Origin: Paramacrobiotus metropolitanus | Lineage: Eukaryota > Tardigrada > Eutardigrada > Parachela > Macrobiotidae | Length of the DNA stretch: 64,000 bases | NCBI RefSeq assembly: GCF_019649055.1 | Contig: NW_026570233.1 | Coordinates: 1,775,723 to 1,839,722, forward strand | Reading direction: 5' to 3' | In this document: piece after piece, positions 40,154-64,000 of the stretch | Numbering within the stretch: position 1 is the stretch's first letter | How the letters are laid out: each line of letters opens with the position of its first letter | Position numbers and translations under genes: made by a program | Notes under the pieces: model-generated | Seen by the model: only the letters and a program-made list of their open reading frames with translations | Databases searched by the model: none | What the model was told of the DNA's origin: nothing

Positions 40154-40159
40154 GGCACC

Positions 40160-44673: not shown

Positions 44674-44693
44674 CTGCGAAAGAAGTTTTGCAG

Positions 44694-44946
44694 TCCCTGG
44701 CACCCTGCAGCTGCCGGTGTGCCTGCTCCGTGGTTCCCAACAACGCCTGGACCGCTCCAGACGCATCGACGTGTGCATCGATTCATCGACGCGCGCTGGC
44801 TGTATCTGCTGGTCTTACTGCTCTTCAACATCATCTACTCGGTTTACGACCTCACCATCAGCGCCGTGCCGGAAGCGGGCGACACCGATGCTGGCGGAAG
44901 TGCATGTAGCCCCCGCCCTGGTGCGCATCCAAGCGGCACGTGTTAG
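44694..44946 (+). CDS. C-terminal exon with one membrane helix, unknown (ion-channel-like?)
   Basis: The exon follows acceptor AGTTTTGCAG and ends at TAG 44944-44946. It encodes a basic stretch, RRVHRFIDARWLYLLVLLLF, NIIYSVYDL and a Gly/Ser/Pro tail. A single helix after a basic segment near the C-terminus recalls TM4 of Cys-loop ligand-gated channels (family knowledge), but I cannot show the rest of such a gene. The GC content is well above the flanks. It could be a fragment of a dispersed pseudogene. Confidence 0.35.
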
Positions 44947-45463
44947 TAATTTTTTTTTGTGTTACGACTGCAAATACGTCATGTGATCGATGGCGATATC
45001 TAGGCGGTTAGCAGTATTACGGCATATTGTATTAATACCGCTGCGCAATTGCATGCAAAATACATTTGGGCATTTCCATTTAGAAAATAATAAAGCTTTG
45101 TACAGCTCTGTACTGTACATGTGCAAACATTTTGCAGATGGAAAACCGGGGCGCGCGAGAGTAAAAGCTGAAATGCACTGCCTTAATTACTGTAAATAAT
45201 TGCTAAATAAAATGACAGGCTGTTGATAAAAATATGTAAAATCTAATCGTAGTCGTTGCGATTGGACTTTTATGTTAGCATTGGATTTATTGAAATAGAA
45301 TCATAAAATAAGTTGAATTCCGAAAAGAAGATTATCCTTCATGATAATTACTGTAATCATATTGCTTCCCGTTGTATGCCATAGATCAAAGGTCACTCGT
45401 AATTCGTAAAACCTGTAATCAATTACAAATGCTGATTTGGCAGAAAATTACACTGAAACGAGC
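44947..45463. other. Intergenic
   Basis: AT-rich, no supported gene; 3' flank of the GPCR gene. Confidence 0.4.
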
Positions 45464-46522
45464 TTAGCGAAACGTCGGTGTTAATTTCAACCGGCGCATA
45501 CAAAAGCCACGCAAATCATCCATGGCAGCGATAAACAGCAGCGGATCGATGGCCGAGTGCAGCATCTTGAGGATATTAGCGGTGCGGTACAAGTTCTGAT
45601 CGTTGACGAGACTAGGCATCAGGTAATACGCGTTCATCGGCGTCCAGCATACCACGACGCTGCTGGTTAGGACGATAAGGATGCGTACGCTGTGCTGCGA
45701 ACGGCGTGTGCGGCTGTTCATTCCGTTGCCGCCCGTGACGGCGCCCCCACCGCGTCGTGTTGATTCCGTGGCCGATGGGGAATTGCTGTCCGCTGTCGGC
45801 TGCGCCGCTGGCTGTTTAGCGCGTACCCGCTGCATGCGCCGGCGCCGGCACAAAATCAGCGGACAACTGGCCACGATCAACACTTCCGGGGTTACCATGA
45901 ACAGCACATTGAACGCGGCATTCCACTGCCGCAGACCCGGGATCGCCTGGTTGAGGTTGCACCACTGGTTGAGTAATACGGAGCGCGGATAACCGGCGTC
46001 GATAGCCACGGCCGGCACAATGAAGAGGAGGATGGCGGTGTACGTGCCGACGCAGATGGCCAGCGCCAGTTGCCGCGTGTGCCGGCGCCGATAGGAGTGC
46101 GGCTGCAGAATGGCCCACAGCCGGTTGAAGCACATGAGGGCGTGGCACACCGCCATGAAGGCGACGGTGGCGGTCCTTAACGTCAGCTGGAAGCCGCAGA
46201 GCAGGGAGGCCTGCTGGTTGGTGATGATGTCTTTGATGGCCACTACCAGCGGGTTCTGCAGCACGGCGCTGAGGAAGTTACTTCCGGCCAGGCTGATCAG
46301 GTAGACGCTGAAGCCGCTGCGTAACTGCGGCTCGACGACGTACATGGCCAACAAAAATCCGTTGAAAAGCACGGATACAGTGCAAATCACTAACGTGGCG
46401 ATCTGGGCGCTGTTGAGATGAGCCAGGCTATTATAACTAGGGACTGACAGGTTGCTGTTATAACTAGGAATACGGACTGACAGATTGGAAATCGTCCAAC
46501 TGAGCGTGCGGTTTACGTCCAT
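45464..46522 (-). CDS. Rhodopsin-type GPCR, orphan, single exon
   Basis: ATG 46522 to a stop at 45464 gives 352 aa without introns. The N-terminus has several Asn-linked sites (NRT, NLS) and a short internal repeat (PSYNSNLSVPSYNSL). Seven helices are clear. TM3 ends MCFNRLWAILQP (NRL for DRY). Cys residues before TM3 (LLCGF) and in loop 2 (QWCNLNQ) can pair. Loop 3 is long, Arg/Ser/Gly-rich. TM6 has VVVCWTPMNAYYL (canonical CWxP) and TM7 has SAIDPLLFIAAM (DPxxF). It resembles the 28.3 kb receptor in its NR(F/L) and DPxxF variants, so both may belong to one expanded orphan family. The ligand is unknown. Confidence 0.9.
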   Translation of the reverse strand: MDVNRTLSWTISNLSVRIPSYNSNLSVPSYNSLAHLNSAQIATLVICTVSVLFNGFLLAMYVVEPQLRSGFSVYLISLAGSNFLSAVLQNPLVVAIKDIITNQQASLLCGFQLTLRTATVAFMAVCHALMCFNRLWAILQPHSYRRRHTRQLALAICVGTYTAILLFIVPAVAIDAGYPRSVLLNQWCNLNQAIPGLRQWNAAFNVLFMVTPEVLIVASCPLILCRRRRMQRVRAKQPAAQPTADSNSPSATESTRRGGGAVTGGNGMNSRTRRSQHSVRILIVLTSSVVVCWTPMNAYYLMPSLVNDQNLYRTANILKMLHSAIDPLLFIAAMDDLRGFCMRRLKLTPTFR

Positions 46523-47995
46523 GCCGCACCGGGCGCATTTAGCGGGGGGGAAGAAATTATACCGAGATGGATAAAATCTTAAAAGGTTTAAACCGCATGG
46601 TAAAAGCTTCGTTTAATATGGTCTGTCAGCAACAGGAATGCCATCGTCGAAGTAAGGCACGGCCAAGAATAAAGGTCACTCAGGAAGCCGGTAATGAAGT
46701 TTCTTTCCGCTCATATGTAGTACAGCCTGTTTACGTTTTACAGCGATGGATGTACGGCACAGTATATTACACATATGTAATATCATTCTACTCCGTATGT
46801 TACGTCCTTTCCTCTAAATATCCGGTGGTCGTAAGACTCCCGTTATGAAAGGCGAAAATGAAGTTAGGAATGAAATGTGGAGCAACCTTTAAGCACAGTA
46901 ACTGAATACCTACGCTCATATGCTAGCGCGTCATCCACAATTAAGCACTGTAAGATTGGATTGCGATGCTTGCATCACTGGGAAAACGATCTTGTTAATT
47001 AGGGAACATTGTCCCGTGACTGCGCAGTACGCACCGGTGCTGAGACGGGAACGCAGCGTTTCCAATTAGCGAGCAAAATCAATCGTATGCTTGTAAGTCA
47101 CTGGTTCTGGTAAGTAATCTCCAAAATAATTATTTAGTATTTACTTATTCGAGGTGGAAAATGCTGATTTGTAGTTTCCTTCGATCCCAGCTTCCTGCTT
47201 CCCGCTGAAGCGTAGTTCGCCCGTAAATTGATCTGCTGCTTTTGCCATTTCCACCCGACTGCTTTTGCCATTTCCACCCAAATTCTGCGCTCTAAAGTTG
47301 AATTCCCGAACAAATTCTGCGGATCACTGTGGTTGTCGTTTCCTAGCATCCGCCCGGTTTTCTAACAAGACTTATCTGGTTGTTTCAAATGTGTGTGCAG
47401 ACAGGGAAAAACCTATTCATCCACGCACAATAAGCCATCTACGATATATCTACCATATCCCGATGCAACGACATATCCTGCTGGACAACTCTTAGGTGTT
47501 TCCGCTTTTACGATTTTTTTTTGCATTTACAACGGAAGACTATACAATTTAAGGACAGCGTACTGTATCTACAGAAAAGGTGGAAAACGTTTTATACATT
47601 CTGCGATAGTATAATATAATTCTAAGGATATCGGCACAGCAGTAGTTACAGCCTCTGGTACGAATTAAACCGCATTCAACAGTAATTAACTGAATTCTTT
47701 TCTCGACCGGTTCGCAATTAAGGGTTTTACCATGGCGTCTATGGCAATAGACTATATCGAGTAGGGCTTAAGTATGACTTTGTTCCCATGCATATGCATA
47801 TGCACGTGTGGGTGATATGATTTTATAAGACCTTCAGGTAAAAATTCGATTGAAAATAAAAGCAGCCAGGAACCGTCACGAAACGTTTGTTTGCAATGTA
47901 CGAGTATCTGTTCATGTAAACAGTAAAGCCACCAATTGCGCAAAAAAAGCAACAAAAAAATTCAATTTTAAATTCGGTTTTCGCCATTAAGTGTA
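46523..47995. other. Intergenic, no gene recognised
   Basis: Short frames only, AT-rich; includes the promoter side of the GPCR gene. Confidence 0.35.
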
Positions 47996-48289
47996 TCAAA
48001 GTCGATCCGACACTACGACATGTCCAGACGCCGCGGATGCTGCTGTTTCTTCTACTTGTGGTTTATTCCGAAACCATACACGTGTGGCCGAGAACCTTGT
48101 GGTATTCGTAGACGGTTCTGTTGCGTCCGGCAGAGTTCGGTACTGGGCCTGGTAGCCGTTGGGGATGTGCGCCGGAGTGTACGGCTCCGCGGCGTAATAT
48201 GCCGGATGTCCACTGTGGCCGCTAATTACAGGAGGCGACACAATATGCGGAATGCCGTATCTATGCCGTTGTATGCGAAAAGAAACCAT
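47996..48289 (-). CDS. Hypothetical Pro/Tyr/Thr-rich exon
   Basis: An open frame of up to 97 codons reads GIPHIVSPPVISGHSGHPAY, AAEPYTPAHIPNGYQAQY and on to a stop at 47996. It is GC-rich against an AT-rich flank and preceded by AACGGCATAG, a possible acceptor. It has the look of a disordered tail. No partner exon is visible, and I do not recognise it. Confidence 0.3.
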   Translation of the reverse strand: MVSFRIQRHRYGIPHIVSPPVISGHSGHPAYYAAEPYTPAHIPNGYQAQYRTLPDATEPSTNTTRFSATRVWFRNKPQVEETAASAASGHVVVSDRL

Positions 48290-48530
48290 CTGAGTATGAT
48301 TCGAAATGTTTCTGATTTAAATACTGAACTTTATACACGTACCCCAAACGACAGCACTGAATCCAGTCCACTCTATACGTCGCTGTATTAGCGTTCATCT
48401 TCTTGGATATTCCGGTCATTACGTGGCCATGTGCGCACGTGACAATAAAGTTGAAGTTTGAGTCGTAATATTCTCCAAATTGGTCGTGCGTCGATACATA
48501 ATCTTACAGAAAAAACCAAATCTAATAATG

Positions 48531-48902
48531 TTACGATAATTTATAGTTTGAATATTTGAGGGTTTCTGTACAGCACGATGCGTAATCGATATAGTAGCCT
48601 TTCGGGGTTGTGCAACACTTCATAGAACAGCTGTCATCGGCCACCGGGCGCCATGTAAAGAAGTTATTATCGTCATCCCAAAGACCTGTAAAGTTACCGG
48701 CTAAACGTGTATGCTTAAGGGTATTGGTTTGGTTATCGTAAAACAAACTTACAAACTTTTTACCTGTGACAAAACTGTTGACGCTTATGCTGGAATTCTT
48801 GGGGTCGTAACAAAAGAAGTTGAACGTGAAATTTCTGTAGACACAACTACAAACACACGGATTTGGTAAACTTCTTAATCGTCTGTGACATAGGATTGGC
48901 AT
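48531..48902 (-). CDS. Hypothetical Cys-rich secreted-type exon
   Basis: The frame ends at a stop at 48531 and includes two possible acceptors near its start (GTTTGTAG, GTCTACAG). It encodes FTFNFFCYDPKNSSISV, LAGNFTGLWDDDNNF, FTWRPVADDSCSMKCC and IDYASCCT. Four sequons and paired cysteines suggest an extracellular domain. The N-terminal 20 residues of the open frame do not look like a signal peptide and may be intron. Family unknown. Confidence 0.4.
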   Translation of the reverse strand: MPILCHRRLRSLPNPCVCSCVYRNFTFNFFCYDPKNSSISVNSFVTGKKFVSLFYDNQTNTLKHTRLAGNFTGLWDDDNNFFTWRPVADDSCSMKCCTTPKGYYIDYASCCTETLKYSNYKLS

Positions 48903-51736
48903 TCACGGTTAAAGTGTTTGTATTTAACCGCGCCACGTGATTTTTTTCTAGTGCTGCCTATACTTGGGATAATATGGATACAATCCTTTGGATGGGGGCT
49001 TGTAAGGAAACATAAACTTGCACCACAACTCCTCTATTCTCTAAGCATCGACACAATTCAAACAAACAATTAAATGCTACAGATACCGGCTGTAAAACAA
49101 GCGATCACAAGAATTGCCGTACCTCAAAGTCGAAAATCAAGTCTCTACAATGATCACATCAAAATAATATCCTATAAACGATCGGACAAAATGCTTCAGA
49201 ATATGATACTTACTGTATTCCTGAAAAATAAAAAAACTTTAGTGAAAACAAACAAAACCGAAAAGCAAAGCCCACGATGGAAAACAGGGCACATGTCATT
49301 TATTACAGCCAGAATCAACTTGCCAACTGCCGCCTCTCCATCGAGGCACTCCACAAGCCATTGTCGATGTGGAAATCGCGGGCCGCCATGATTATGAAAA
49401 GTGTAAATAATCGTGTCTCCCTGAAAAATTTTCTCGTTGTAAAATGTAGGCAGCTCAAAGATTTCGCAAAAATCGCTCGTTTATTACAACATTTCTTAGG
49501 ATTACCGTTCCATAAACCACGTAGCTACCGTGATACCGGTAAGTTGCAAAAACAGCCACAAAAATTGGTCCAAGTATTACCAGAATTAACCGAAAATTAT
49601 AAAAGTTTTGCATTTTATGTTTGTAAATTAAAGCTAACAATGTATGTATCAAAGGAGCGGATAACTAGCGGCTTATTAATTTCTGCTTTTCGCGTAGTGA
49701 ATCATGCGCATAAGCTTACATCTATATTCACAATACGGTTAACTATCGCGTTCAGTACAAATTATTCGTGTTCAGTGTCGCTGTCACTCAGGAATTCCAC
49801 GTCTTTGTGCTGAGTACTGCCTGGTGTAACAGCGGCGTTTGTACGTAAAGTCGAAAACGTGATACAATGGCTTTTGCAAAGCGAGGTCCGCAGCATCCCA
49901 CTCACTATCGTTTAAGACGGTGTGAAAATGTCGTTCGAGAGAGGCAGCGTGAGCTATGAATTGACCGAAATTGACCCAGCTTGTAGCACAGCGCAAATCC
50001 TACTCAAAGTTATCGAAAGTGTACGGACGTACCTGTACAGTAATTTATAAACACTGAGAGCAGGCTGTTTGTATATAACATGCTCATTAAGCGTAATGCA
50101 TTGGGCAAAGTCGGTACGGTTTCCTGTTTCATTATGAATAAAAGATTGTAATGACTGACAGGTATTGACGGTTGACTAATCGTTGCTAAATCCGTGTACG
50201 TGTCGACCAACTACAGAATATATCGTATTAACTATACTCGTAGTATAGCAAAGTACGTACAAAAGCACTTCTACTACTTATTCATAATGCGCACAGCAGT
50301 ACAAATGATTTCTAAACTGCCAATGTATCCTTATTAAGTAATGCAATTAAGTGCTCTCAGAAGCATGCTAAACAATAATTTATTCAAAAATTATTAAAAA
50401 TGTAGGACATAGCCGGCATTGAGCTTATTGGATGTGATACCGCACGCTAAATTTGCTGCTTTTGGACAAGTTCCATGCGTGCATTTATAGCGAACTCCAC
50501 TAAGAAGTTTTGTTTTTGTAATTCAAAGTTTTGATCTTTATACTGGAAATTTAGAAATGTCGAAAACCCATTTTGTAGTGCATAAATGCCTAAACCGTAA
50601 ATACATTTAATGCAATTAGGCTTAACGTAGGTAGTGCATATACAAACGCTGAGCTCGATTCACAGCTCGATTTTTGCTGAAATGATAAATTCTTCGAGGC
50701 AAAATTGAAAATTACCCACGCGTGGGTTAAAGTGGTAGCAGGGAAATTGCCGGGCTAAAGATGTTGATGGTTTGTGCTTTTGTGGTGAAGCTTTTGTGGT
50801 GAACATAATATCCAGTAGTCGCTAATTACAAACAACTAATTCAGTTTAAGGTCAGCGAAAACCACAAAGTTGATGGCATTTAGATATAACTTTTAATACC
50901 CGTATTCAAAACAAGAGAGTTGACTGGTGCCAGCCGTAACAGGTGAGATTGACCGTTTCCGGCCCTTCCATCTTCGCTTTTGTCATCCAACCGGCATCTA
51001 ACATTACAATTTTCCAGGGAGCATATTGCCAGCTTAATCTTGGGCTCAAGTGAACTACAAGTCTACAACAGAACCGCCTACGTAAATGACCCTCAGCACA
51101 AAACAATTATCATAATAAATAAACCAAGAAATCGTCGATTTCTATCAAGTCAGAAAGCACTTTTAACAGCAAACGCCGGTTCGTTATCACTTTCTATTTG
51201 GGTTGTCATTCTTTATAATTGGCTGCTTATGATGACTCTTGACTCGAACTACATACGTAATTAACTTGTTCGCTTATTCAACAGACAACTCGTGACAACA
51301 GTAATCTTTAATGCGCCATTAATACCGATAAAATGCGACGCTTCTGGTGCCAGCTACCTTATCGGAACAATTAAATTTCCGCGGAAGCAATGGAACGTGC
51401 ATGCAAAATTAGAAATGATATCATTCTCTTGCTGTCTGTTCGATTTGTTAAGCCTGCTTCCCGTAGAATCTGCATCCTGTTCAGTGCCGATACAGTTATC
51501 CGGCACCGGTTTATCACACTTCTCGTCACTTTTCGTTTAATCAGAATCTTATCAGAAACTAAAGGAAGAAAATACGTCGCTTCTACTTGGCATTTGGAAA
51601 TGCCAAAAATGCACACCAAAATATTTTCACTTATCAGTTTAACAGTTTATAGTTTATACTGAGCTTTAAGTAAATTGTAACTCGAAACAACTGCCAGCTT
51701 ATTGAAAAAGTAGTTTCGAATAGCAGATTTTCTAGA
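48903..51736. other. Intergenic, no gene recognised
   Basis: A long plus-strand frame at 49277-49813 lacks coding character. A minus-strand frame ending at 50906 contains LDAGWMTKAKMEGPETVNL and could be a last exon, but nothing supports it further. Confidence 0.3.
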
Positions 51737-51941
51737 ATGCTTAGATATTTCAGGATACTTTGCATCTTTCTGTTTGGCACCTTTTTGTCGCTCGTTTTTG
51801 GCACTACAGTTTCTGAAAAAAATGCTGCACCATGTAGGTACTTAAAATTTGATGTTATTGAGATCGTGGCTTGAGAACTATTTTACTTCGCAGTGGCTCG
51901 ACAACCCTGGCAGGTTCCGGCTAACCAACATTATACTCAAG
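51737..51941 (+). CDS. Secreted peptide gene, first two exons only
   Basis: Exon 1 (51737-51833) starts at ATG and encodes a clear signal peptide (MLRYFRILCIFLFGTFLSLV, then FG) with phase-1 donor GTAGGT. Exon 2 (51894-51941, acceptor TTACTTCGCAG) encodes LARQPWQVPANQHYTQ and ends in phase-1 donor GTAAATC. No third exon is visible before the candidate LTR at 51990, so the 3' part may have been displaced or lost when the right-hand block arrived. Short Gln/Pro-rich product, function unknown. Confidence 0.5.
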
Positions 51942-51989
51942 GTAAATCGAACCCGGACTGCGTAAAATATAACACATGAAGCTTGGTAC

Positions 51990-52437
51990 TGTGACAGGCA
52001 AGCGCAGAGAGCTCACAGGTGACTTTATTGTACAAATAAAGTGGAGCAAATGCCGCGTGAATGCGGGGAAAAACACAACAAAGGCCAGTGTCTGGCAGAA
52101 ATCAGCAAGTCAAGTTGCTGCGAGCTAGTTCTAGCGCGTAATGAAATGTAGAGAAAGAAATGTGCTGGCGGCAACGGCGTCACGCTGTCCAGACACATGG
52201 AATGTGAGTGCGCAGACTGGACTCGTATCCAACGCGAGCGAATATACGCTGAGTCATACAGCGAGAGAGAGCGAGAGAGCAAGTATGCTCAGTGAGTGCG
52301 CCCGCGGTGTATCCGCATAGGCGGAGAGTGCAGTGCAGCCACTCACGTACGTACAAGAGAGGGCGAATCAGCATGTGTGCAGTGATACGCATACGCAAAG
52401 TGGCGTATCTATCACGCAGGCTGTCGTGCCTCTAACA
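51990..52437 (-). mobile_element. Candidate LTR (448 bases), orientation probably minus
   Basis: The block begins TG and ends CA on either strand. Read on the minus strand it has GTATATTC as a TATA candidate near 52243 and AATAAAG near 52030, in the right order for U3-R-U5. A GA-rich tract lies near 52260-52282. It sits at the left edge of the TG-rich block. No polypurine tract is evident and no second LTR is in the window, so this stays tentative. On the plus strand TGGGCGGGAATCC just beyond the right edge could pass for a primer site, which would reverse the orientation. Confidence 0.3.
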
Positions 52438-53244
52438 TGCCTCTGGGCGGGAATCCGAGCTCCTGCGAGGATGCTCAGACTCGTACCGCACCAGCGTCGC
52501 ACCTCTCCGGTCGACCCATGTGGGGTCGCCGGTACGCGTCCTCTTCCGGCGGGAGTCCGGTGTCTGTTGACCGTCCCATCCTTCACTTCCAGATCCATGA
52601 GAGGCAAGCAACTCACGGCCGCAAATCTGGAAGCCGCTCGGGGTTCGTTGTTGGACCGGTATTGCTTCTGTTGGCCTGGCATCTTGCTTCTGTTGGCTCG
52701 CGGAGAAAGTAAAAGAAAAGTAATGACAGTTAAGCAGCGCGAAGTAAAAAAAAGTAATAAAGTTTTAATCACAATTCCAGTGAGCAAAAAGTAAATGCAA
52801 AACAGATCTGGTTAGAGATTCTAAGTAAAATACAATTCCGTTTGTTAGAAAATGTACAAAAATACTAAAAAAAGATCTGTCCGGGGGGCTTATTCCGACT
52901 AGGATGACGTCCACGGGTCTTGAGTTTCCACGGGGTCTCCTGTCTAAATGCAGTCCGGTGTGTCAGGTCCGGGGCGTCGGTTCCCGGGTTACCCAACGTA
53001 ACCGGTAAGTTCTTCCGAGGTCGGGTAAGCACGGCTGACACTTACGTCCGACTCGTATTCGTCCGTTCCGGAGGGAGAGGCACTGTCGCTGTTGCGAATG
53101 CCGAGGCATCCTCTCTAATTAGGGGGAATAGACCAAGGTCATCGGACCAAGGTCGGCCTGCCGGTAAGTTAACCGGCGGCAAGGGAGTTCGGCTAAGTCC
53201 CGAATTCCAGAAAGTCAGGTCGGACAAAACCGTACTTGTGTCAT
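52438..53244. other. Transition into the TG-rich block
   Basis: No gene supported. Composition shifts around 52870 to a T/G-rich, A-poor plus strand. Confidence 0.35.
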
Positions 53245-53426
53245 GCGACTTCTGTGGTCGCCAAGTGGTAATGCCGATGGAATGTGGTCGGTTAAAACCG
53301 TTAAATCTGCTACCACGAGCCTGGGTGTGACTTCCGATACGAACTGGCTCGAAGGTCCGGTCGGAATTTCTTGTTCCTCCATCCAACGGTGGTTTATCTG
53401 ACCTTCTGCCGGTTGAGGATGGATAT

Positions 53427-54179
53427 CCGACCTGAGGTCGGTTATAATGTTATCCGACCTGAGGTCGGTGATAACGCACCTCCATGGTCGAGCTCGGTAA
53501 CTCGTGTTATTTAGGCCCATGTGGGGCCAAACAAGTCCCGTTAGGTCGAATTCGTCCATTCCGAGGTCGTTTCCAGTTCCGATCTTCAGTTTAGTCGTCT
53601 TTCACCGACCTGTTATCGGTGACTCCTGATGTCCGACCTGAGGTCGGGTATGATGTTATCCAACCCGTGGTCGGTGGTAATGTTATACGACCTGAGGTCG
53701 GTTACCACGTGACTGGTCCGTTCAAAGGTCGTATCTCGGCTGATCCGCTGGTGTTCCAAGCGAATCGAGCGATCCGGCGTTCCTAACCGACTTCTGTGGT
53801 CGGTTGGACCGGTTCTCCGACCCGAGGTCGGTGATAATGTTATCCGACTGGAGGTCGGTTACTCCAAGTCCCAGGTCGATTAAGGTCGATTCCTTCTGTC
53901 CGGAAGTCGTTTTCCGTGAACATCCTGGATGGCGTCTCCATCCACCGACCTGTTGTCGGTTACTTCTCATGTCCGACCCGAGGTCGGTTAGAACGTTATC
54001 CGACCTGAGGTCGGTGATTCCGTAATTCCGTGTTCAACCGAGGTGAGTTACGGTATAGAGGCTCAAAAGTGGAGCCGTACAAGTCTGTTTCGGTGGAATC
54101 ATCCTCATAACCGACCTGTTGCCGGTTTCCATTTTATCCGACCTGAGGTTGGACGTAATGTTATCCAACCCAAGGTCGG
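53427..54179. repeat. Eleven CCGACCTGAGGTCGG-type palindromes in modules
   Basis: Copies start at 53427, 53454, 53633, 53660, 53687, 53817, 53844, 53973, 54000, 54138 and 54165. They come in groups of two or three with starts 26-27 bases apart, and groups start 154-206 bases apart. A second hairpin type, ACCGACCTGTTNTCGGT, precedes three of the groups (53603, 53943, 54109). Confidence 0.8.
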
Positions 54180-55231
54180 TGATTCTTCTTCCAAGTCGGT
54201 TGCGTCCGTCAAGAGGTCGTCTGGGCACTCCTCCGATCTCTGCGAAGTTTGTTTGAAGCGATGGTCTCTTTCATGCCTCTAACATGCCCTGGTTCGGGTC
54301 GGTGGTTTTGCCTCTGGACGGGTCCGAGTTCCGTCAAGTTCGGCAGTTCCATGGCGTCTGTTGGCCATTCAGCATGCAATCCAGGTCGCTTGTGGCATCA
54401 AGGGACTTCTGTGGTCCCAATCCACAAGACAGACTCTTTGGTTTCAGACCGGCGTACAATTCTCGCGCCTTGGCAGCGTTGTGCCTCGGGCCCCGACTTA
54501 TGTCAGACTGCCCGTTCCCATCCCCATGCAACATGCGAACTGAGGTTAAGTCAGATCACTTCACTTCCCTGGTTTGGAGTTCCTTCGTTCGGTTCCGCGA
54601 ACCTGTGACGCCTTGCCACTTCAGTTATGGAAAGACATCACAGGTCCGTAGGGATCTGTATGGGGGTGCAGGCCGTGTGTTCTAACACGGTTTGCCTAGG
54701 ATGTTCCATTTGAGACATGGGGAAGCAGGTCGCGGCGGAGTCGTTGGTACGTCAGTAGTCAAATCACCGTCGCTGTTCCTCTTCAGGTAATGGCAGCACG
54801 GTCAAGCCGCGCGTAGTCGTGGTCACCGGTGAATCGGTTGGTTTATCCGATATCCTCCGGGGGAGACTGCGGTTGGACTCCAGGTACAGGTTCCTGGTTG
54901 AAAGCCTGTAGGTCCGGGTTCAAACGGAGAATCCGTCCAGACTAAAATCGTAGTCGGGTGTCGCGGTTTGCGGTCGCCATTACCGACTTCTGTGGTCAGT
55001 AAAGGCTACGATAAAGCCATCCCGTTTGTAATTTCCGTGTGCTTCCGTCAGGCCGACGTCGGTTAGTCGACATCTCAAAGGTCGGCTACCGTTGAAAAAA
55101 TCGACTTCTGTGGTCGGTTCTAGGTAGCGGGTCTTAGTTGACACTGTCCGGTCCGAGTGACTCCGTGTTGTTTGCGGACTTGTTATCCTTTCGGCCATCC
55201 GATTTCGGAGTTAACCGTGGGTGCCTTGGCA

Positions 55232-55276
55232 AGCATGGTCCTGAACACACCGCAGTGCTGTGTTCCGGGCCATGCT
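55232..55276. repeat. Long hairpin, copy 1
   Basis: Arms AGCATGGTCCTGAACACA and TGTGTTCCGGGCCATGCT pair with two imperfect positions. The flanks GGTGCC and AGCGGAATCCTC recur around copy 2. Confidence 0.6.
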
Positions 55277-55822
55277 AGCGGAATCCTCGCTGGTTCGTAC
55301 TCCGGAGTCCGGTTGCCGGAGTGTTGATGTCGTAGATCGTAATTAACCAACACGGTCTGCGTTGGGTGCCCTTTTATACCAGGTGTTCTTCGGATGTAAG
55401 GTTGAAACTTCACCGACTTCTGTGGTCGGCTAAGTTATCCGAGTCGTGATTAGAGAAGGTCCAAGTTCTACCTTAAAATTGGCTGACTTCCGTGGTCAAC
55501 GAAGGTAGTGGATCGTGGTTCTGTGACACGGTCTGCGTCACTTCCTTTAGTTACCTCGGGAATGGTCAACTTCTGTGGTTGACTGAGGTAACGGGGCACG
55601 GTTAAGGTCGCGGTTTGCGAAGTTAGGTCTCTGGGCGGGAGTCCGGTTCTTCGTTCCTGCCTTCGGTTAATCCAAAGCGTCGTGTCATAACAGGTCGGAT
55701 TTGACTTCTGTGGTCAATTCCGAACCATGTGACATTGCGGGCCGATGAGGATACCACTGTCTGCGGTGATGGAAGTTACTGGTCGGTTACCCGGTCCCAA
55801 AGTCGGCCACGGGTGCCAGGCG

Positions 55823-55864
55823 AACATGGTGTCGAGAACGTAACAACGTTTTCGACACCATGTT
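55823..55864. repeat. Long hairpin, copy 2
   Basis: Arms AACATGGTGTCGAGAACGT and ACGTTTTCGACACCATGTT pair with one mismatch around AACA. It lies 590 bases from copy 1, in the same flanking context. Confidence 0.6.
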
Positions 55865-56377
55865 AGCGTAATCCTCTCGGTCTGTTCTCCAGAGTCGGTT
55901 AGCCGGAGTAATCTTCTTCGGTAGCAGAACGTGGTTCACGATATGCTATGTTAGCAAGCCGGGGCGTCTGTTGGCTCCGGTGTAGCAGATATGGTTCCGA
56001 TCTGGTTCGCGATCTGCTAATGCCATGCTGGGGAACTGAGGTCGGTTGCCCAGTTCATTCCAGGGGATTCCTTGGAGGACGTAACGGTACGGTGAAAGAA
56101 CCGAAATACCCAGGTCTGACCACACGTTTCCGGGTCCGACCAAAGAATCCGGCCAACTTATGTGGTTGGCGCTTCTGGCGTATTCGTGGTTCACGTCTGC
56201 TTTAGGGTCCATAAAAGAAAAGTATCCGTTCCATGTTTTCCATGTCGTTTCTCGACGTGGCTGTTTCTCAGCCGGGCAGGTTCTCCGCTAGGTCGGTTCT
56301 CGACTTCGCTGTTTCTCAGCTCGATGTCCCTTCCTTACTGTTGAAGTGGGACCACAGGTTCCTTATGTGGGAACCTG

Positions 56378-58794
56378 TTATCCCAGGGGGACTGAGATCG
56401 GCGGGTCTCCGCCGAAGTAATCTTCGTCGTCATCGTCAGATTTAGGTGGTGGTCGACCAAGGCGCCGGAAGACGTCAGGCTTACATGTTGCTGGTGGTTG
56501 CCCATCTGGTTGTGGGGTGCCTTCCTGGCCAGGTTGTTCCGCCCGCGCCTTCTTAGCTTTCTGGACCTTCCTACGGAGCTTATGCGCGTTAGGTACTGCG
56601 CCGGGTGCCAAGTCGTCCGACATCCCTTCTCCATATGGTCTAGAGGTGAATCCACTAGGTAACGCTTTTTCTTCGCGGTACCACTTCACGAATTCGGCCG
56701 CATCGTCGTCTGGATCTTTGAAGTCCTTGCGGAAGGCGTATCTGGCCGCGTGCCGTTCCTGTATGTAAAGGAGGTCGCGTAACCAAACTGCCAAGATGAT
56801 ACTTCGCATGGGTGAACCAAGTTGTACGACGATCGTATCCAGTTCTGGTGGGATATGTGCCGTGCGACGTGCTCCCCACAGCGTGTAGTGGCAAAAGTAG
56901 TTGCCTAACCTTGCTGCGAAGACGTACCGCAAAATGGTTGCATTTCGATCTTCTGGTCCCGGTTCTTCCTCCGGCAAGTACTGCAGTAGGTCCAGGGCCG
57001 CTCGAGCCGCTGCGATGATGAAGGCCGGGTGGGCGTCGGTGATGACGAATTGAGCCACGCTTTCCAGTTGATCGCGTGAGTACTCCTGAGGTCCGAGCTG
57101 ACTTAGACTCGTCCTCTCCGGTGTGGACAAAGGTACGTCCAACAGTGCCGGATCATGCACCGAAGGCAAAGCGTTTGCTCGATTGATCGGGTGTTCCACG
57201 TTGGGGTGGTCGTTCATGTTGAACTCGCCCATCCAGTTATTCAATTGGAATCTGGTCTGGAATCCGGATCGGATGAGGAACTGACGCAGGTTTTCTACCA
57301 TCCGCCAAATGTGTGGTCGGTGTCGTTCCTCATATCCCAAGGTATTCATGATGTAGTTCGTCCGTTCGGTCGGATGTGGCATGACGACCTCAACTCCCTG
57401 TCGTCGGGCGTTGTCATAACGAGGGTCGTCCTGGCTTGGAACTTGCACTGTTGGCATCAAAGCCATCTGGTTTGCCACATCAACATCCATTTCTTCAGGT
57501 TTATCTGCCGGTTCCGCCATGTGGGCTTCCGGTTCTGGTTGCTGTTCAGGTGGGACAAAGTTCCGTTTCGACTTACTGGTTGAGTCGACGACCAGTCCCA
57601 TACTCGTCTTCTCCGGACTTGACCGTTTACCAGGTGAAGGTCGGGTTGCTTCACTATTGCCGTGTCCGGCAGAGGCTCGTCGTTCCTCGATTCTGTGTCG
57701 AGCGTCGTGTCCGAGCCTATGTCGAAGGTCGTGTCCGGCTAATGGTTTAGCAGGTCGGCGCTGCTGTTGAGTCGACGACGCGGCAACTGGTTGTGCCGGG
57801 GTTCCAGGTTGAGGAATCTGCTGGGGGACGGATGGCTGGGTTTGTGTAACCACTGGAACGACCTTCTGTGGGATCGTTGCCATCTGCTCCACCGTTGCGG
57901 GGTAAAGAGTGACCATTTTCATGGTTCCGTCGTCCTGTCGCATCATCATTTGGATTGATGCGGACTGAAGAGGTCGGTGGATGTCTCCGACTATCACTTC
58001 TCTCACGTCATGAAGCACCTGTTCCGACTCTGAGCGGCCTTGTGTGGGCTGCTGTAGGTGAACAGTGATTTGTGGTTCATGCTTCGTTGGTGGTGGATGG
58101 ACCTTCATGGTGGCAATTCTTTCGTTGACTGCCTTAAGTTTCGCACGGTCCTCCTCCTGGCGCCGCAGGTCTTGTTGCTGACGGTATTCCAGAAGCCGAT
58201 GAGTCAAAGTCGGTGGCACTGTGTTAGTCCATCCAGGGTCGGAAGCGCGGTTGCGTTGGATTTCCGACAAGTGATCCTGTTCGTAGGCCCGTAACTGGTT
58301 AATTAGACGTTCGCTGCGGGCTAAACGTCGGTATGCGCTGATGTTCCCAGCGACGACGTTTATGTACAACGCCGCTGCTTGCATCGCGTCACGACGTCCG
58401 ACTTGTGGGGTATGTTCATCCGAGAAAGAAATGATGCAGTCCGCGCATGGGAGTCTGTTGCCCTGCGGAGTTGAGTTCTCTCTGCAATGTCGGCAGTCCG
58501 CCGTGTACGCCTCCGTTCGCGGCTGTTAAAAGAAAAATTAGACGATCCGTTTCTCGGATTCGTTAGCCTATACGTGTTACGTCCTATGATTACAACGGTC
58601 GGGCCGGGTCGGTTCTCGAGCTGGTCCAAGGCACTATGTGGTGCCTAATGAGGTAGGTCGGGACATTCTGTTGTGTCCGAGGGAGGTCGGTGATCACAAG
58701 TACTTGTGTGGTACTCATGAAAGAGGTCGATTCTACGACTCTTCCGACGTATTCCATGTCTCCTCATCCGTTAGTCGATTCCACCCGGTTCACC
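56378..58794 (-). CDS. Large unknown protein, C4 zinc-finger-like N-terminus, acidic C-terminus
   Basis: The main exon runs from 58522 (acceptor TTTTCTTTTAACAG, phase 0) to TAA at 56378-56380, about 714 codons. It starts with DCRHCRENSTPQGNRLPCADC, a CX2C-X11-CX2C zinc-binding pattern. It continues with a helical region (RLINQLRAYEQDHLSEIQ), a Gln/Pro-rich linker, a folded-looking part (about 57350-56700; WRMVENLRQFLIRSGFQTRF, NYFCHYTLWGARR) and an acidic tail (KSDDDDEDYFGG). An upstream donor at 58793 (CTCCAG then GTGAAC, also phase 0) joins it to the frame of the next block, defining a 271-base intron. It could be a structural (gag-like) protein of a large element or a host gene. I recognise no family. 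Confidence 0.5.
58523..58793 (-). other. Putative intron with stem-loops of the same type
   Basis: Bounded by GTGAAC and a pyrimidine-rich TTTTAACAG in matching phase. It contains AGGCAC-TATGTG-GTGCCT (58629) and AGTAC-TTGTGTG-GTACT (58699), the same hairpin style as the array to the left. Confidence 0.45.
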
Positions 58795-59952
58795 TGGAGA
58801 GAGTCGGTTGGCTCATTCTGTTGCTCCGAGGTCGGTGGATGCTTCGGTAAGTGTCCGTGTCGGTGTGTTGATGGCTTAAGGGCTTCGTATCGTTCTCCTT
58901 CCCGAGTCTGGTTGATGCCAAATCTCTTTTGGAAGAATCCCTTGCTCAGGACGAAGTCCAAGTCGTCACCAACATGTACTTCTCGCCTCCTTTCGTTCTG
59001 TTGACGGGCTTGTACTTCGGGTCGACCAGCTGGGGTTTTTAGCTTCCCATTCAAATTCGAACCTAGCTACCAGCTGATGTAGAACTTCGCCGCGGGTCAG
59101 TCCTTCCGGGTGCCACGACATTTCCATACACGCTTCGATGGCATGTACCCAACCTTCATAAGTGGTCGGCGCCGGATCTCGTTTCTCCGGTGGGAATTCG
59201 TAATACATCCGCTTGCTGCTGGTGTATGTCCGTATGATTTTACTTTCGTTGTACCCAAGGTTACAGTACCGGTATACGTTGCTCTGGCTTAGTTGCCTCC
59301 AACCTCCACCGATGTCACCGATCTTATGGTGCCTGAGGAGCTGGAATGCGATCTTCGGTGTCGCAAACTTCGGTCCACAGGTCGCCAGGGCCTTCAAGGC
59401 CGCGAAAGTGTACATCCATCCCGGATCGTATTCCGAGACGCGTGGGGGTAGAGTATGAGCACGTTTAATGGCCACCGTCGGGTGTTTGACGTTTACCTTC
59501 GGTAGGCTAGGAATCTGTAACGGTAGGACTTCCTGGGTATCCTCGTTCCATTCCTGGAGGAGTTGATTCGGGTCGGAATCTGGTGTTAACCGTACTTGTT
59601 GACGGTAGTTCTGAGGAACGTAGACGTCACCACTATCTTCATCCATCGGCTCGTCAGCTTCGTTGCCGTCGTTGGCCGGTGGTTCGTTCTGATTGTCAGA
59701 AATCTCCGGTTCACCCTGCTGTTGTGGTGCCGAAGCTGGTGGAGGTTGATCGTCATCGTCGTTATCGTCATCCTCCGACCCTTCTGGTGTTTGATAGGTG
59801 TCGTCATCGTCCTCATCTTCTTCTTCTTCATCTTCGTCTTCTTCCTCAGAGGGCGTTTTCTCCTTGGTCTTCACCGACTTCTTCCTTGATTTCAGCGGTT
59901 TAGGTTGACTCTTCCGTAGAGTCTTACCTTCCGGAGCCGGTGAAGTTTCCAT
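58794..59952 (-). CDS. Unknown acidic protein segment, one internal frameshift
   Basis: From 59952 the frame encodes a Lys-rich start (SQPKPLKSRKKSVKTKEK), a long Glu/Asp run (about 59780-59860), a Pro/Gln region and a folded-looking part (WMYTFAALKALATCGPKFAT, WRQLSQSNVYRYCNLGYNE). Near 59040, at a run of five A and four C, coding character moves one base to the frame that reads TPAGRPEVQARQQNE and FVLSKGFFQKRFGINQTREG down to the 58793 donor. A homopolymer indel is the simplest cause. ATG 59952 overlaps another open frame (60151 to 59924), so the true start is unclear. Function unknown. Confidence 0.45.
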
Positions 59953-60734
59953 AGGTGAGGTCGGTGGAAGAGATTTGCGTGTCTTTCACCGCAAAACGTC
60001 CGGTTGTAGTCCGACCTGGCTTAGTTGCACTTGCCCTTGCTGGTGCCGAGGCGGTGTTGACATATGTTACCGGTTCGAACGGTGCCCGAGGTCGGTTGGT
60101 TGGTAGTCGTTTCTGTGACGACATACCCGACGCTCGTGCAATGTTCAACATATCCGCCGCCTCGCCAGATGGTTGTTCATCCGACTCACTGTACTCCTCG
60201 ACGACCGTTTCAGTACCTTCGGGAGAAGGACTGTAGGTTGATATAGGATATCCGGAGTTTGAAATCGCGTCGTTGCTGCTCCGGTATGAACCGAGGTACT
60301 GTGTACCGAAGTGGTAAATCGCGTTCCGCGTTGGTCGTATGGAGGGAAAACTCTGCCACCATCGTTGCGATGACAGGTCCTAAGAGGCCCATTATGACGT
60401 CAATATTGCCCTGGCTGTTCTCGTACATAACGTTGTATATACGGGCGATATGTAGTAAGGAGGATCCGCGAGGGTTTCTTGCGTATCCGATGCACCTGAC
60501 GATTCTCGTTGGCGGGTCGTCTAGTGCTCTGGCGGCGGCGCTCTTGAGCTTTTGGATAATGTCCGGTGCGATTAACTCGGCGGTCCGTCCCCATTGTCGG
60601 TGGACCGCTACGGCTAATCCGAAGTCCAAGGCCCATGCCACTATAGCCATCATAAGTTTCTGTGTGAGCCAAGGTGAGGTCCGACCTACGATCCTTAAGT
60701 TGGTCGAGAGGTCGCGCACCAATGACTGGTACAC
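59924..60734 (-). CDS. Unknown protein segment, helical, frameshifted
   Basis: The frame 60734-60210 encodes a helix-rich part (YQSLVRDLSTNLRIV, LTQKLMMAIVAWALDFGLAV, VRCIGYARNPRGSS, NIDVIMGLLGPVIATMV). At about 60225-60250 coding character moves to another frame (SPSPEGTETVVEEYSESDEQ, RAPFEPVTYVNTASAPARA) that continues to 59924. The first open codon is GTG, so the start is artificial and the frame likely joins the block to the right. No family recognised. Confidence 0.45.
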
Positions 60735-60744
60735 ATCTCTGCCT

Positions 60745-62060
60745 TCATTTCGGGCATTCTGACGCGAAATCCGACTGGTCGGTCGCCAGGTTGAGCGTCG
60801 GGTAGCCGCTGACGTACGTCATCAGGGGCTGGCCATTCAGAAGCGTCAGTGTCTTCTTCGTGACTCCATTCTTCATTACGATCGCCTTTGAATCCTTCGT
60901 ATGGATCGGCTTCTCCATGGTCGGAGATCTCGTCGTCAGGTTCCGACGGTTTCTCCGATTCGTCGTCCGAATCTTTCTTGGACGTAGCAGGTTTCGGTTG
61001 CTTGAGTGGTGGCTTAGGCGTCGGCTTAGACCTTTCGTGTGGTCTTTCGGCCTCTGTTTGGTCACCGCTGTACCTGCTCTGGCGATCAGTTCTCGCATCC
61101 GCTGTTTGGCTGCGTCGTAGTCAAATTCCTCCTTGGCGTTCCCCTTTTTGTCCGGCTTCTGTGGGCCAGCGTCTGAGGTATCAAGGTCTTCGGAGGACTT
61201 ATGCCGTTTGGCCGGGTTAGGTTTCGGCGTCTTAATTGAAAGGTCCGACCTCGGTTTAGTCGGTTCCTTCGGAGGTTGTTTGGTCACCTCCTTTTCAGCT
61301 TCCTTTCTGGCTTCTTTCTTAGCCTTCTTCTTTTCCCTCCGTGACAACTTAGCCGAGTTAGCCGAGTTGATCACCTTTGAATCCAGTAATTCGTCCTGGA
61401 TCTGCACGGAAGGTTCCCTTACTGGTTGAGGGTTCTTCATCTTGACCACCAATTGACGTGTTGTCGTGGAGGTCGACTTCGGGTCCGGTGCGAAGAGTTT
61501 CGGTCGGGTCGTGGCGGCCTGTTGTTGTGCCGCAGGTCGGACCTTCTCCGCACGGAATCGTTCTCCCATTCTTTTCATGACCTCAGCCATCCTTTGTGTA
61601 AGGCGTTCATGTTCCTTACGGACCGCGTCGGTGTTTCCAACGAGGTTAGCACGGCGTGACTTCAATGAGTTCCAGAGTTCTTTGTCCTCTGGGAACGCAG
61701 TGTCCACACTCGCATCCTGTTCCGACCTGGTCAGGTCCTGAACGTGTTTCAAGGCTGGGTCATCGTGGTATTCTCGCGAGAAATCGTCAGCCGGTTGCTG
61801 CTTCTTTTGCTTCTCTTACCCGGAGCTGTTGCCGGCTCATCTGTCCGAGATTCGTCAATGACCAACTTGGCTGGTTCCGAAAGTCGATTCATTCTGTGAT
61901 TCAGGTCCGACCTCCTTTGGAGACGTCGTATCCATCTCCTCCGGGGTTTGCTTTGGTTTAGTTGGAGTATTCCGGGCGTGAACCTACGTGGCTGTTCCTT
62001 CGGAGGTTGACTCATCGTTGCCGGTTGAGACGCTGCCCGGTTCGGTGAGATCTGTTTCAC
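60745..62060 (-). CDS. Unknown Lys/Pro/Glu-rich segment with several frameshifts
   Basis: The most protein-like reading changes frame repeatedly. TPTKPKQTPEEMDTTSPKEV (about 61950-61890) is in one frame, EPAKLVIDESRTDEPATAPG in a second, and LKHVQDLTRSEQDASVDTAF onward in a third. From about 61030 SKPTPKPPLKQPKPATSKK and EWSHEEDTDASEWPAPDD follow in yet another. An in-frame TAG also precedes the first piece. A GTAAGAG donor near 61816 with a CCAG acceptor 66 bases on could be a genuine small intron. The rest looks like indels. Disordered, charged composition; function unknown. Confidence 0.4.
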
Positions 62061-62500
62061 CGAGACCTACTCCTTCTCGGCGTTGATTCTGCCGGTCGAG
62101 ATCCATATGACGACCTGGAGCTTGTTTGTGCATCCATCAGCAGAGTCTCTTGCCAGGTTAAGTCGTCGTCATAGGTCGGGTCATCTTCGATCTGAGCACC
62201 CTTTCTGTAGTTGTGGTCAGATTCGTCGCTACTGTCGGACATGATGCACCGAATCTTCTCGGTAACCTGTTGACCGGGTTGAGGGGGCATCTCCAACGTG
62301 TAGGCTGCAGGGTTGATGCGAGGGTGCCGGAGTAGTTGGGCTGGCTTAATAATGGCCGCGTCCAACGGAAGCTGTCGTAGTGCCTGTCTTCCGCACCTCA
62401 CAAACATCAGTCGGCGTAGAGCCTTGTCCCTGTCCTGGATTAGCGCGTATATCCGCTGACCGAGTGCTTGTTGCTCGTCAGTGGATAGCTTTAACCTCAA
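62057..62500 (-). CDS. Unknown helical plus acidic segment
   Basis: The frame reads LRLKLSTDEQQALGQRIYAL, LRRLMFVRCGRQALRQLPLD, then acidic MSDSSDESDHNYRKG and DDPTYDDDLTWQETLL. It starts at TTG where the previous frame stops, so it continues that protein after a one-base shift and is not a separate gene. Near 62080-62090 coding character moves again (GVGLGETDLTEPGSVSTG). Confidence 0.45.
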   Translation of the reverse strand: MRLKLSTDEQQALGQRIYALIQDRDKALRRLMFVRCGRQALRQLPLDAAIIKPAQLLRHPRINPAAYTLEMPPQPGQQVTEKIRCIMSDSSDESDHNYRKGAQIEDDPTYDDDLTWQETLLMDAQTSSRSSYGSRPAESTPRRSRSR

Positions 62501-63977
62501 TCCTCTGTTAGGTGGGCTTCGTTGAGAATCCGTTCCAGGTCATAGTTCTTGGCCTGTCGGACTAACTTCTTATGGACTCCAGACGTAAACACTGACTTTG
62601 TTACCGAGGTCGGTTTCTGTGACTGACCCGGTTGTGTTTCATCCGCTGGAGTCTTTTTCAAAATTTCCAACAATTGTTCCTTTGTTCGGACTGGTGGAGG
62701 TGAGAATAGACGTCTCCTCGGACCTTTGTCGTCTGCTATGGGCTCTTTATGTGAGAGTCCCGGCAGAGTTGTTGGTCGAGTGAGTCGGGCAGCTGGCTTT
62801 GGTTGGCCGTCCTGCGGTGTTGTTGGTGTTTCGGAAGTATCCATATCCACCTGTTCGAATGCACCGACCTCGAGTTCGTTCCCGAGTGGCGGTACTTCAT
62901 CCATTGGTTCATCTTGTTGAACCTCCAATGGTTTGACAGGTTGGACCGGTGGCTTAAGTGTCGCCTTAATCTTCTTCGCGGGAGTTTTCAGCTTGCGTTC
63001 CGCTTCCTGTTGTTTGCGTTTGTAGAAGTCTTCCGCGAAGCTGTCAATTTTGACTTTGAGAATCCGTAACCGATCCTGATTCTTGACGGTCCGTTGCGTC
63101 TCAGGTCGGAGAATGAATCGGACCTCCTTGGTATTGTTCTCCAAGTGGCCTAGGTTGATGTCAATCTGGCGGTACTGCGGAGTCTGCGGGTCGGTTGAGT
63201 CCCGTAATTGGTAAAGTTCACCAATCAATCTGTCCGCGGTCTGCAGAGTCAACTGGATTTCGTCATCCGGTATGGATTGTGGAACCGCGAAAGGGTCCGT
63301 CGGGTTACGTGTCGACTGGATTTGTGTGATCCGAGCTCGACGATCCGTTGCTGCAGTTCGCAGCGATGCTTCAGAGGTTTCCTTTCGTTGGTCACGGTCC
63401 CGTTCTTCAATGTAATCTCGGACTCGCGTCTCCAACCAGGAAGAGGTCCTTATTATATGGCCTCTTATGCCGGGAGTCTTCGGCGCGTCTGGATGGTGGA
63501 GTTGGCGGAGGAACTTTACGTTAGTGCCCCAGCCAAAATATCACGGTCCAAGTCTTGTGCTAACCGGCTGTTGGAATCACAAAAGATTCGACGGGCTCTC
63601 ATTTCTGTGATGAGTTCCATCGTCTGATTCACCAGGTTAACCAAATGAGGTGGTGCGCTTGTTGGCATCGTTCCTGGGTCCGGTATTGCTGACATTATTC
63701 TAGCTTCGGTAACCGGGGACATAGGTCGGTCGCTAATGTCCGCTGGCTTAGGCTGAACCGTTCCTACTGTTGAGGTCGGTGGGGCCGGTCCTGCTGTAGA
63801 GGTCGGCTGAGTCGAGCTAGTCGAGGTCGGTGCTGACTGCTGACCTTGAAGCGCGGCGATTTCCGCCGTTAGTTCGCGGACTCGTTGTTGCGAGGACGTC
63901 AGTCGGTCTTCAGCGGCCTTCTTGTCGGCTGCTTGGGCTGGATCACTGTCATCCATGCCGGCGAGTCGCACTGTCAT
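62497..63977 (-). CDS. Unknown coiled-coil/Pro-rich protein, two exons, start of the chain
   Basis: ATG 63977 opens exon 63520-63977 (MDDSDPAQAADKKAAEDRLT, RVRELTAEIAALQGQQ, then a Ser/Thr/Pro linker and a helical end NQTMELITEMRARRIF). A 71-base intron (63449-63519; donor GTAAAG, acceptor ATAATAAG, phase 2) joins it in frame to 62497-63448. That exon reads ETRVRDYIEERDRDQRKETS, QTADRLIGELYQLRD, KVKIDSFAEDFYKRKQQEAE and a long Pro/Glu region. The frame is open upstream of 63977 to the window edge, so the N-terminus may extend further. Coiled-coil and disordered composition; no enzyme motif. Likely the 5' part of one long gene that continues leftward. Confidence 0.55.
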
Positions 63978-64000
63978 GTTGACAACGATTTCTTCCGCGC

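Follow-up and report, generated by a model that had tools for sequence, protein, structure and literature searches.

Hairpins with a constant loop and free stems recur along giant Ty3/Gypsy retrotransposons of Paramacrobiotus metropolitanus and may be dispersed packaging signals

We analyzed a stretch of 64,000 nucleotides from the tardigrade Paramacrobiotus metropolitanus (contig NW_026570233.1; "the window" below means this whole stretch), the right end of which, from about position 51990, is part of a giant Ty3/Gypsy long terminal repeat (LTR) retrotransposon in minus orientation, cut by the end of the contig. Hairpins with the loop CACANAA and stems of about 5 bp and unrelated sequence span the 5′ region, the pol part, the accessory open reading frames (ORFs) and the 3′ region of this element (loops and stems are given in letters of the element's sense strand, the minus strand of the window, unless said otherwise). 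The computations show that the loop stays constant over unrelated paired stems, that it is restricted to the sense strand, that it is present in coding and noncoding sequence alike, and that four Gypsy families of the genome have different loops; selection on the sense-strand hairpin is well supported. As a candidate role, that of a protein-binding or packaging signal of a large element, suggested in the initial annotation of this DNA, fits best.

A constant loop on unrelated stems in the window family

The window family was represented by 26 kb from three copies (the window part, L039, and the first 4518 bases of L040, of which the first 0.4 kb duplicates the end of L039, with no CACANAA in the overlap), and all 36 CACANAA words were taken regardless of their flanks. 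Five of five flanking pairs are Watson-Crick in 16 of the 36, and at least four in 26; when the right flanks were permuted among rows, the mean was 1.2 full stems and the maximum 7, so that none of 20,000 permutations was as high as the 16 observed. The 13 rows from L039 and L040 alone include 4 full stems, which was equalled in 8 of 20,000 permutations. The initial annotation had proposed that a hairpin on the same strand as the ORFs is under selection, and this is borne out by the 36-row alignment, in which standard pairs fill 76.7% of cells (46.0% after shuffling) and the covariation score is 0.715, compared to 0.230 in shuffles (none of 500 as high) and 0.08 to 0.21 for slid structures. 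Its nine hairpins plus two relatives are real; they account for fewer than half of the CACANAA hairpins now known to have four or more pairs, which number 26, and the loops specific to other families were not visible from the window alone.

A blind scan, in which loop words of 3 to 9 bases were ranked by the number of distinct perfect 5-bp stems, placed CACAGAA first (9 distinct stems, corrected P ~1e-11) and CACATAA second, the best corrected P among 100 dinucleotide shuffles being 0.001; such a scan over the host part of the window (50 kb) gave no recurrent loop. A count of CTTCTGTGG over the window gives 10, where 0.31 would be expected and none of 100 shuffles exceeded 3. In its 3′ region the window copy contains 11 sense CACANAA, 9 of them with at least four contiguous flanking pairs, and none on the opposite strand. 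In the ORFs and short gaps of 56378-64000, 4 of 12 CACANAA are full stems, versus 0.14% of all positions. The stems (CTCAT, GTCGT, CTCGA, GAGCT, GGGAC, GTAC, and others) have no common sequence. The loop is looser in the 5′ half, where NACRNAA words with a first base other than C form 9 full stems in 105 (0.28 permuted), a class defined after the L039 hairpins had been seen. Perfect hairpins of any loop (stems of at least 5, loops of 3-9, nested ones counted apart) number 65 in 52900-56377, versus a mean of 22.2 and a maximum of 37 in 20 shuffles; the raw count is uninformative alone, because 56378-64000 (74 versus 46.3) and 40000-51990 (142 versus 92.9) also exceed their shuffles.

The hairpins of the window copy, spaced from about 70 bases to more than 1 kb, are:

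53245..53261, minus strand, GCGAC-CACAGAA-GTCGC; in other copies GTGAC/GTCAC (L023) and GCAAC/GTTGC with loop CACAAAA (L036)
53785..53805, minus strand, AACCGAC-CACAGAA-GTCGGTT, 7 bp
54402..54418, minus strand, GGGAC-CACAGAA-GTCCC
54982..55000, minus strand, ACTGAC-CACAGAA-GTCGGT, one sense-strand U.G pair
55102..55116, minus strand, CGAC-CACAGAA-GTCG, 4 bp in this copy
55413..55429, minus strand, CCGAC-CACAGAA-GTCGG
55482..55500, minus strand, GTTGAC-CACGGAA-GTCAGC, variant loop, one U.G pair
55565..55583, minus strand, GTCAAC-CACAGAA-GTTGAC; GTCGAC/GTCGAC in two other copies (L016, L028)
55701..55717, minus strand, TTGAC-CACAGAA-GTCAA
56152..56170, minus strand, GCCAAC-CACATAA-GTTGGC
56354..56378, minus strand, ACAGGTTCC-CACATAA-GGAACCTGT, 9 bp
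57686..57702, minus strand, CTCGA-CACAGAA-TCGAG, within a 715-codon ORF
57858..57877, minus strand, ACGA(T)CC-CACAGAA-GGTCGT, bulged, within the 715-codon ORF; read by eye, 2/5 pairs by strict count
58033..58053, minus strand, AGCAGCC-CACACAA-GGCCGCT, 6/7 pairs, within the 715-codon ORF
58629..58646, minus strand, AGGCAC-CACATA-GTGCCT; a copy on contig C42 has loop CACATAA at the corresponding place
58699..58715, minus strand, AGTAC-CACACAA-GTACT
60106..60122, minus strand, GTCGT-CACAGAA-ACGAC, within an ORF
61152..61169, minus strand, CTGGC-C-CACAGAA-GCCGG, within an ORF; 8-base loop, one wobble, read by eye, 2/5 pairs by strict count; the counterpart in the related C68 family has loop CACAAAG and 4/5 pairs
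62607..62629, minus strand, GGGTCAGT-CACAGAA-ACCGACCT, within an ORF; one A.C mismatch, outer G.U
62743..62757, minus strand, CTCT-CACATAA-AGAG, within an ORF
63318..63332, minus strand, GGAT-CACACAA-ATCC, within an ORF
63598..63614, minus strand, CTCAT-CACAGAA-ATGAG, within an ORF; the C68 family has CTCAT-CACAGAG-ATGAG at the same place

The stem pairs named in the initial annotation are present at 53245-53261, 54402-54418, 55565-55583, 56152-56170, 56354-56378, and 58699-58715. On the plus strand the loop departs from the TTCTGTG or TTATGTG of that annotation at 58699 (TTGTGTG) and at 58629-58646 (the 6-base TATGTG). The annotation's remark on a G-U pair at 54980 is correct: among the 26 copies in which the loop is preserved at this place, 24 have a sense-strand U.G as their fourth pair. 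The stretch of 3 kb in which the hairpins were first noted lies between the last ORF (56378-58525) and the 3′ LTR; the loop also occurs on the same strand within the ORFs, as far as 63609, and another copy has it in its 5′ half.

Hairpins of other kinds are found in the same region. In 53427-54151 about ten palindromes, several of which follow each other at 27 bases, combine an unchanging CCGAC/GTCGG stem with the loop CTGAG, CCGAG, or a similar one; given the constant stem, ordinary duplication is likely. A second loop word, GCAGACCGT, has three exact occurrences (55347-55365, 55523-55541, and L039:8711) with three different perfect 5-bp stems, and short hairpins with differing stems and loop TTTCT or GTTCT (AGAAA or AGAAC in the sense) are clustered at 56244-56320.

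Related families carry other loops

Related loci were picked by similarity of their reverse transcriptase (RT) to that of the window family. The RT identity is about 90% for the C68 family (loci L045 and L046), about 87% over most of its length for C50 (L043 and L044), and 78% for C51 (L041 and L042). Each has a loop of its own: CAATA in C50, with 8 full stems in 31 (0.45 permuted); CAC[AG]NAG in C68, with 9 in 37 distinct rows (1.19 permuted); and a Y-A-H-C tetraloop in C51, with 17 in 662 (0.8 permuted). No permutation in 20,000 was as high in any of the three; the C68 and C51 classes were drawn up post hoc from hairpins of the same loci, and therefore their permutation values flatter them. 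The blind scan ranked CAATA first in C50 (corrected P ~1e-11; best of 100 shuffles 0.008).

The matrix of full stems by motif and family is nearly diagonal. Outside its own family CACANAA forms none (0/3 in C68, 0/3 in C50, 0/12 in C51), and likewise CAATA (0/16 in the window family, 0/11 in C68, 0/14 in C51); YAHC forms 3/908 in the window family, 0/696 in C68, and 4/697 in C50, and CAC[AG]NAG forms 0/11 in the window family, 1/2 in C50, and 0/8 in C51. In six less related Gypsy loci (L047-L052, hand-picked from 150 listed RNase H matches), the 9 kb that precede RNase H, stretches that possibly reach beyond the limits of the elements, showed no loop that recurs, and the four motifs give 0-1 full stems there. 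Only L052 has nucleotide similarity to the four families, and the six are not six independent families, because L049 and L051 are 89% alike over 4.6 kb. Another locus, L055 (C41), had nothing in common with the element pieces compared and was excluded.

Strand, reading phase and folding

All 16 full CACANAA stems are in the sense, and none is antisense; the antisense strand holds only two CACANAA, neither of them paired. The sense and antisense full stems are 9 and 0 in C68, 8 and 0 in C50, and 17 and 0 in C51, with 3, 2, and 283 antisense occurrences of the respective motifs. Full stems restricted to the sense argue that the hairpin is neither a double-stranded site nor a directionless structure; a double-stranded DNA site was rejected also for the lack of a common stem sequence. 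The strand restriction fits RNA and, equally, single-stranded complementary DNA (cDNA). Ten CACANAA lie within window ORFs, with the first base in phase 0 for one, phase 1 for six, and phase 2 for three; a protein-level repeat was rejected, since the loops occupy three reading phases and encode differing peptides. The loops are unlikely to pair in cis with their complement, because TTNTGTG occurs only twice on the sense strand of the window family.

RNA folding of ten 33-base stretches gave a minimum-energy fold that includes the hairpin with the 7-base loop in nine; the exception is the hairpin at 63609 (63598..63614), whose isolated minimum-energy fold differs. The z-scores range from -4.06 to -0.51, and many shuffles do as well as the last of these (at 54413). 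When a covariance model built from the 36 rows was searched in 15 sequence sources up to E 1, its matches outside the window family were six in C68, two in C51, and one in host sequence of the window, at 13027 on the plus strand, with 15.5 bits; L043, L044, and L047-L052 gave none. The Rfam search of 50000-64000 returned four matches up to E 5, all far under their gathering scores.

Replication and change between copies

The word CAATA, fixed beforehand, was tested in C58 (L053, 4.5 kb, 78% identical to C50), where 4 of 6 occurrences are full stems and one more has 4/5 pairs. Eight CAATA of C50 could be matched in C58: the word is kept in all three that have 5 pairs and in one with 3 pairs plus a G.U, whereas it is lost in all four that have 1-2 pairs; one stem is altered on both sides. 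In L054 (C38, 2.3 kb, 69% identical to C68) there are eight CAC[AG]NAG, one a full stem and two with 4/5 pairs, and no CACANAA. When window-family hairpins are compared with C68, seven counterparts retain the loop and are paired in C68, and in five of these seven the seventh loop base has changed from A to G; thus one loop letter has changed at several places in the element.

Compensatory pairs are few among copies of the 3′ region of the window family (38 copies retrieved; columns with one sequence only were kept separate), and covariation among true orthologous copies is small, yet present: GTCAAC/GTTGAC alternates with GTCGAC/GTCGAC at 55577, and three versions of the stem, those listed above for the first hairpin, are found at 53256. 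Single unpaired changes also occur, at many of the hairpins.

The giant Ty3/Gypsy element

The window is the terminus of contig C13 in an assembly of 170 Mb and 533 contigs. The parts of the element that it contains, apart from the hairpins, are:

51990..52437, minus strand, 3′ LTR, about 448 bp with approximate limits, based on direct-repeat copies
52438..64000, minus strand, internal part of the element, based on genomic copies and on the contig ending at the window end
56378..58525, minus strand, accessory ORF of 715 codons, with the hairpins at 57686, 57858, and 58033 inside

The 51990-52437 stretch is repeated directly at a distance of about 20-31 kb on six contigs (C163, C42, C3, C23, C33, and C242); the window copy itself has a single LTR, since the contig end cuts it. 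The 3.9 kb adjoining the LTR recur, whole or in part, at about 40 further genomic places, mostly with 70-99% identity, a lower bound because only the best candidates were scored. Other copies also lie less than about 8 kb from a contig end (C30, C97, C386, C112, and C179), as expected for long repeats in an assembly.

The related copy L040 (contig C42) contains RVT_1, RT_RNaseH, Integrase_H2C2, and rve in Gypsy order; L039, a 5′ part on contig C163, has a gag with one CCHC knuckle, and a protease motif, DTGAE, was read by eye alone in the translation of another copy. The order of pol, the CCHC gag, and the aspartic protease, all taken from copies other than the window's, place the element in Ty3/Gypsy. 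The 715-codon ORF had no match above the cut-off in a Pfam search, and neither did the several extra ORFs of the element. Upstream of the 715-codon ORF several overlapping ORFs occupy 58966-64000 in the window; these presumably lie between pol and the 715-codon ORF in this copy, with its pol beyond the contig end. In the C42 copy the counterpart of the 715-codon ORF directly follows pol, and the ORFs of 58966-64000 are missing. Repeats of the peptide TEVG in the element's first ORF (L039:2446-2900) seem to derive from GGTCGG-rich palindromes in the DNA. Phage records held no relatives of the ORF part 57000-58525, and viral contigs held none of the element's RT.

Proposed function and alternative explanations

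A constant loop over free stems is a frequent mode of hairpin reading by RNA-binding proteins. We infer that RNA rather than cDNA is the active molecule and that a protein reads it: the hairpins would be binding sites, dispersed along the genomic RNA, of a protein that recognizes the loop and requires a stem, whatever the sequence of that stem. This reader would most likely be the element's own Gag, with its RGG-rich region and single CCHC zinc knuckle, in which case tens of weak, cooperative sites could mark, gather, and package an RNA of 20-31 kb. We rank first, at slightly under one half, the reading that the hairpins are dispersed RNA sites read through their loops and probably serve as signals for packaging by Gag, with a code that differs from family to family. 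The pattern agrees with what is expected of dispersed signals (many stem-loops, a shared loop, free stem sequence, and the sense strand), and not with a localized packaging signal of the 5′ leader, as the hairpins occur in the 5′ region, the ORFs, and the 3′ region. Loop and reader may have changed together in each family, so that the giant Gypsy families of one genome would distinguish their own RNA. The broader proposal that coexisting families carry an RNA identity code, each with its own loop word tens of times and its own Gag as the reader, word and reader being switched together, is possible, and we hold it only tentatively.

Several observations weigh against this interpretation, besides the post hoc definition of the C68, C51, and NACRNAA classes. 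The first words of the blind scan were AACAGA in C68 (0.0013) and TGAACCG in C51 (0.0006), with ACAAA (0.0051) and CAAC (0.0021) second; the best of 100 shuffles reached 0.0056 in C68 and 0.020 in C51, and CAAC is clear of the shuffles, ACAAA barely. The loop word is hardly better kept when paired in the comparison of the window family with C68 (paired versus unpaired, forward 5/7 versus 3/7, reverse 6/12 versus 5/11). In near-complete stems G.U is not commoner than A.C (3 versus 6 in the window family, 4 versus 9 in C68, 2 versus 2 in C50, and 24 versus 27 in C51), and therefore RNA is not favored over single-stranded DNA. The Gag knuckles are CCHC in all four families (CNFCKFNNHAQARC in the window family, CRHCMFNNHDGARC in C68, CGHCLWGNHNQASC in C50, and CNHCLWGNHPTEGC in C51); of the 14 residues of the knuckle, 9 are common to the window family and C68, and 9 likewise to C50 and C51, but only the first pair has similar loops, and thus the knuckles alone fail to explain the code. 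In a tblastn comparison of Gag and nucleocapsid pieces, the identity of the window family is 64-71% with C68 and 33-52% with C50 and C51. Finally, the internal sequence of yeast Ty1 and Ty3 is described as mostly dispensable in cis (PMC4974528).

We rate another protein of the element second, though we think it unlikely: the product of the coiled-coil ORF1 or of the 715-codon ORF could read the loop for export, translation control, or RNA coating. A family-specific loop requires a reader that varies with the family, for which any element protein qualifies, the several extra ORFs without a Pfam match provide candidates, and the Gag knuckles do not follow the loops; however, the accessory ORFs differ between copies (as in C42), whereas the CCHC knuckle is common to all four families. 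A host RNA-binding protein, recruited for export or stability or used in silencing, is improbable. Loops over variable stems are common targets of such host proteins, but a fixed host protein would favor one loop, not four in four families of one genome, and no loop recurs in the window's 50 kb of host DNA. Lower still we place an action of the hairpins in single-stranded cDNA, during strand transfer, integration, or restart of reverse transcription, which would suit the restriction to one orientation as well as RNA does, and also the lack of a G.U excess; we know of no reverse transcriptase that requires tens of internal hairpins.

Two explanations dispense with a reader. Mutation itself, for example through a switch of template or the correction of palindromes while reverse transcription proceeds, would match the arms without selection: it restores pairing in quasi-palindromes, reverse-transcribing elements often switch template, and in the comparison of the window family with C68 pairing gives a loop no clear advantage in being preserved. 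We consider it very improbable, as it leaves unexplained the single loop word per family, the restriction to one strand, and the absence from the other Gypsy loci sampled, and since in C50 and C58 the paired CAATA were kept and the unpaired ones lost. An origin of the hairpins from a decayed repeat, dispersed or tandem, is hardly tenable. The CCGAC/GTCGG stem does recur, and many CCGAC-CTGAG-GTCGG palindromes lie in the same region, so duplication may have spread the CCGAC form; as a full account a repeat origin is refuted by the nine distinct full stems of CACAGAA alone and by loops inside ORFs in three phases. A tandem satellite was rejected for want of an array at 53245-56378 and of related stems. 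A single satellite monomer, which the initial annotation had named as an explanation that would refute it, is excluded by the unrelated stems, the three reading phases, and the variable spacing.

Comparison with known systems

How an LTR retrotransposon tells its RNA from that of closely related elements is an open question (cf. PMC4974528), and the candidate sites described here are readable from the sequence alone, numerous, and different between families of one genome. If the proposal of Gag packaging sites is true, they represent an RNA-level constraint within the coding sequence of a transposable element. Dispersed packaging signals are already known in RNA viruses. Our search of the open-licence literature, in which sources were available in part, returned no report of recurrent loop-coded hairpins along an LTR retrotransposon, of dispersed packaging signals for one, or of loop codes that differ between families of one genome; the comparisons that follow draw on excerpts of the cited sources.

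Burro and Ogre resemble the element in their Gypsy pol, a total length of 16 to more than 30 kb, and accessory ORFs, and differ in ORF organization; the excerpts mention no recurrent loop-coded hairpins (PMC6431247). Ty1 and Ty3 are likewise LTR retrotransposons, Ty3 of the same superfamily. Their encapsidation depends on recognition of the genomic RNA by Gag, at sites that are imprecisely defined and to which scattered sites may contribute, and Ty3 packaging is said to depend on the untranslated regions or on POL sequences; they differ in that the mapped cis signals are near the ends, large internal parts being dispensable, and no recurrent loop is mentioned in the excerpts (PMC4974528).

Among viruses, enterovirus-E has multiple capsid-binding RNA sites with a shared motif across its genome (PMC7793301), and hepatitis B virus has capsid-binding sites across its genome with -RGAG- in the loops of stem-loops (PMC7612645). 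These belong to other virus classes and come with binding data, whereas the sites here are known by recurrence of sequence. In satellite tobacco necrosis virus about 30 short stem-loops across the genome have the motif AXXA (for example ACAA) in a loop of 4 to 6 bases; assembly prefers this loop regardless of the stem sequence, and the coat protein is believed to compact and package the genome through these stem-loops (PMC3593212). That virus is a small satellite of plants whose coat protein is a beta-barrel, and ours is a reverse-transcribing element of 20-31 kb with a CCHC Gag, of which several families in one genome have different loops, so far known from sequence. What the two have in common is a set of dispersed stem-loops in which the loop is shared and the stem is free.

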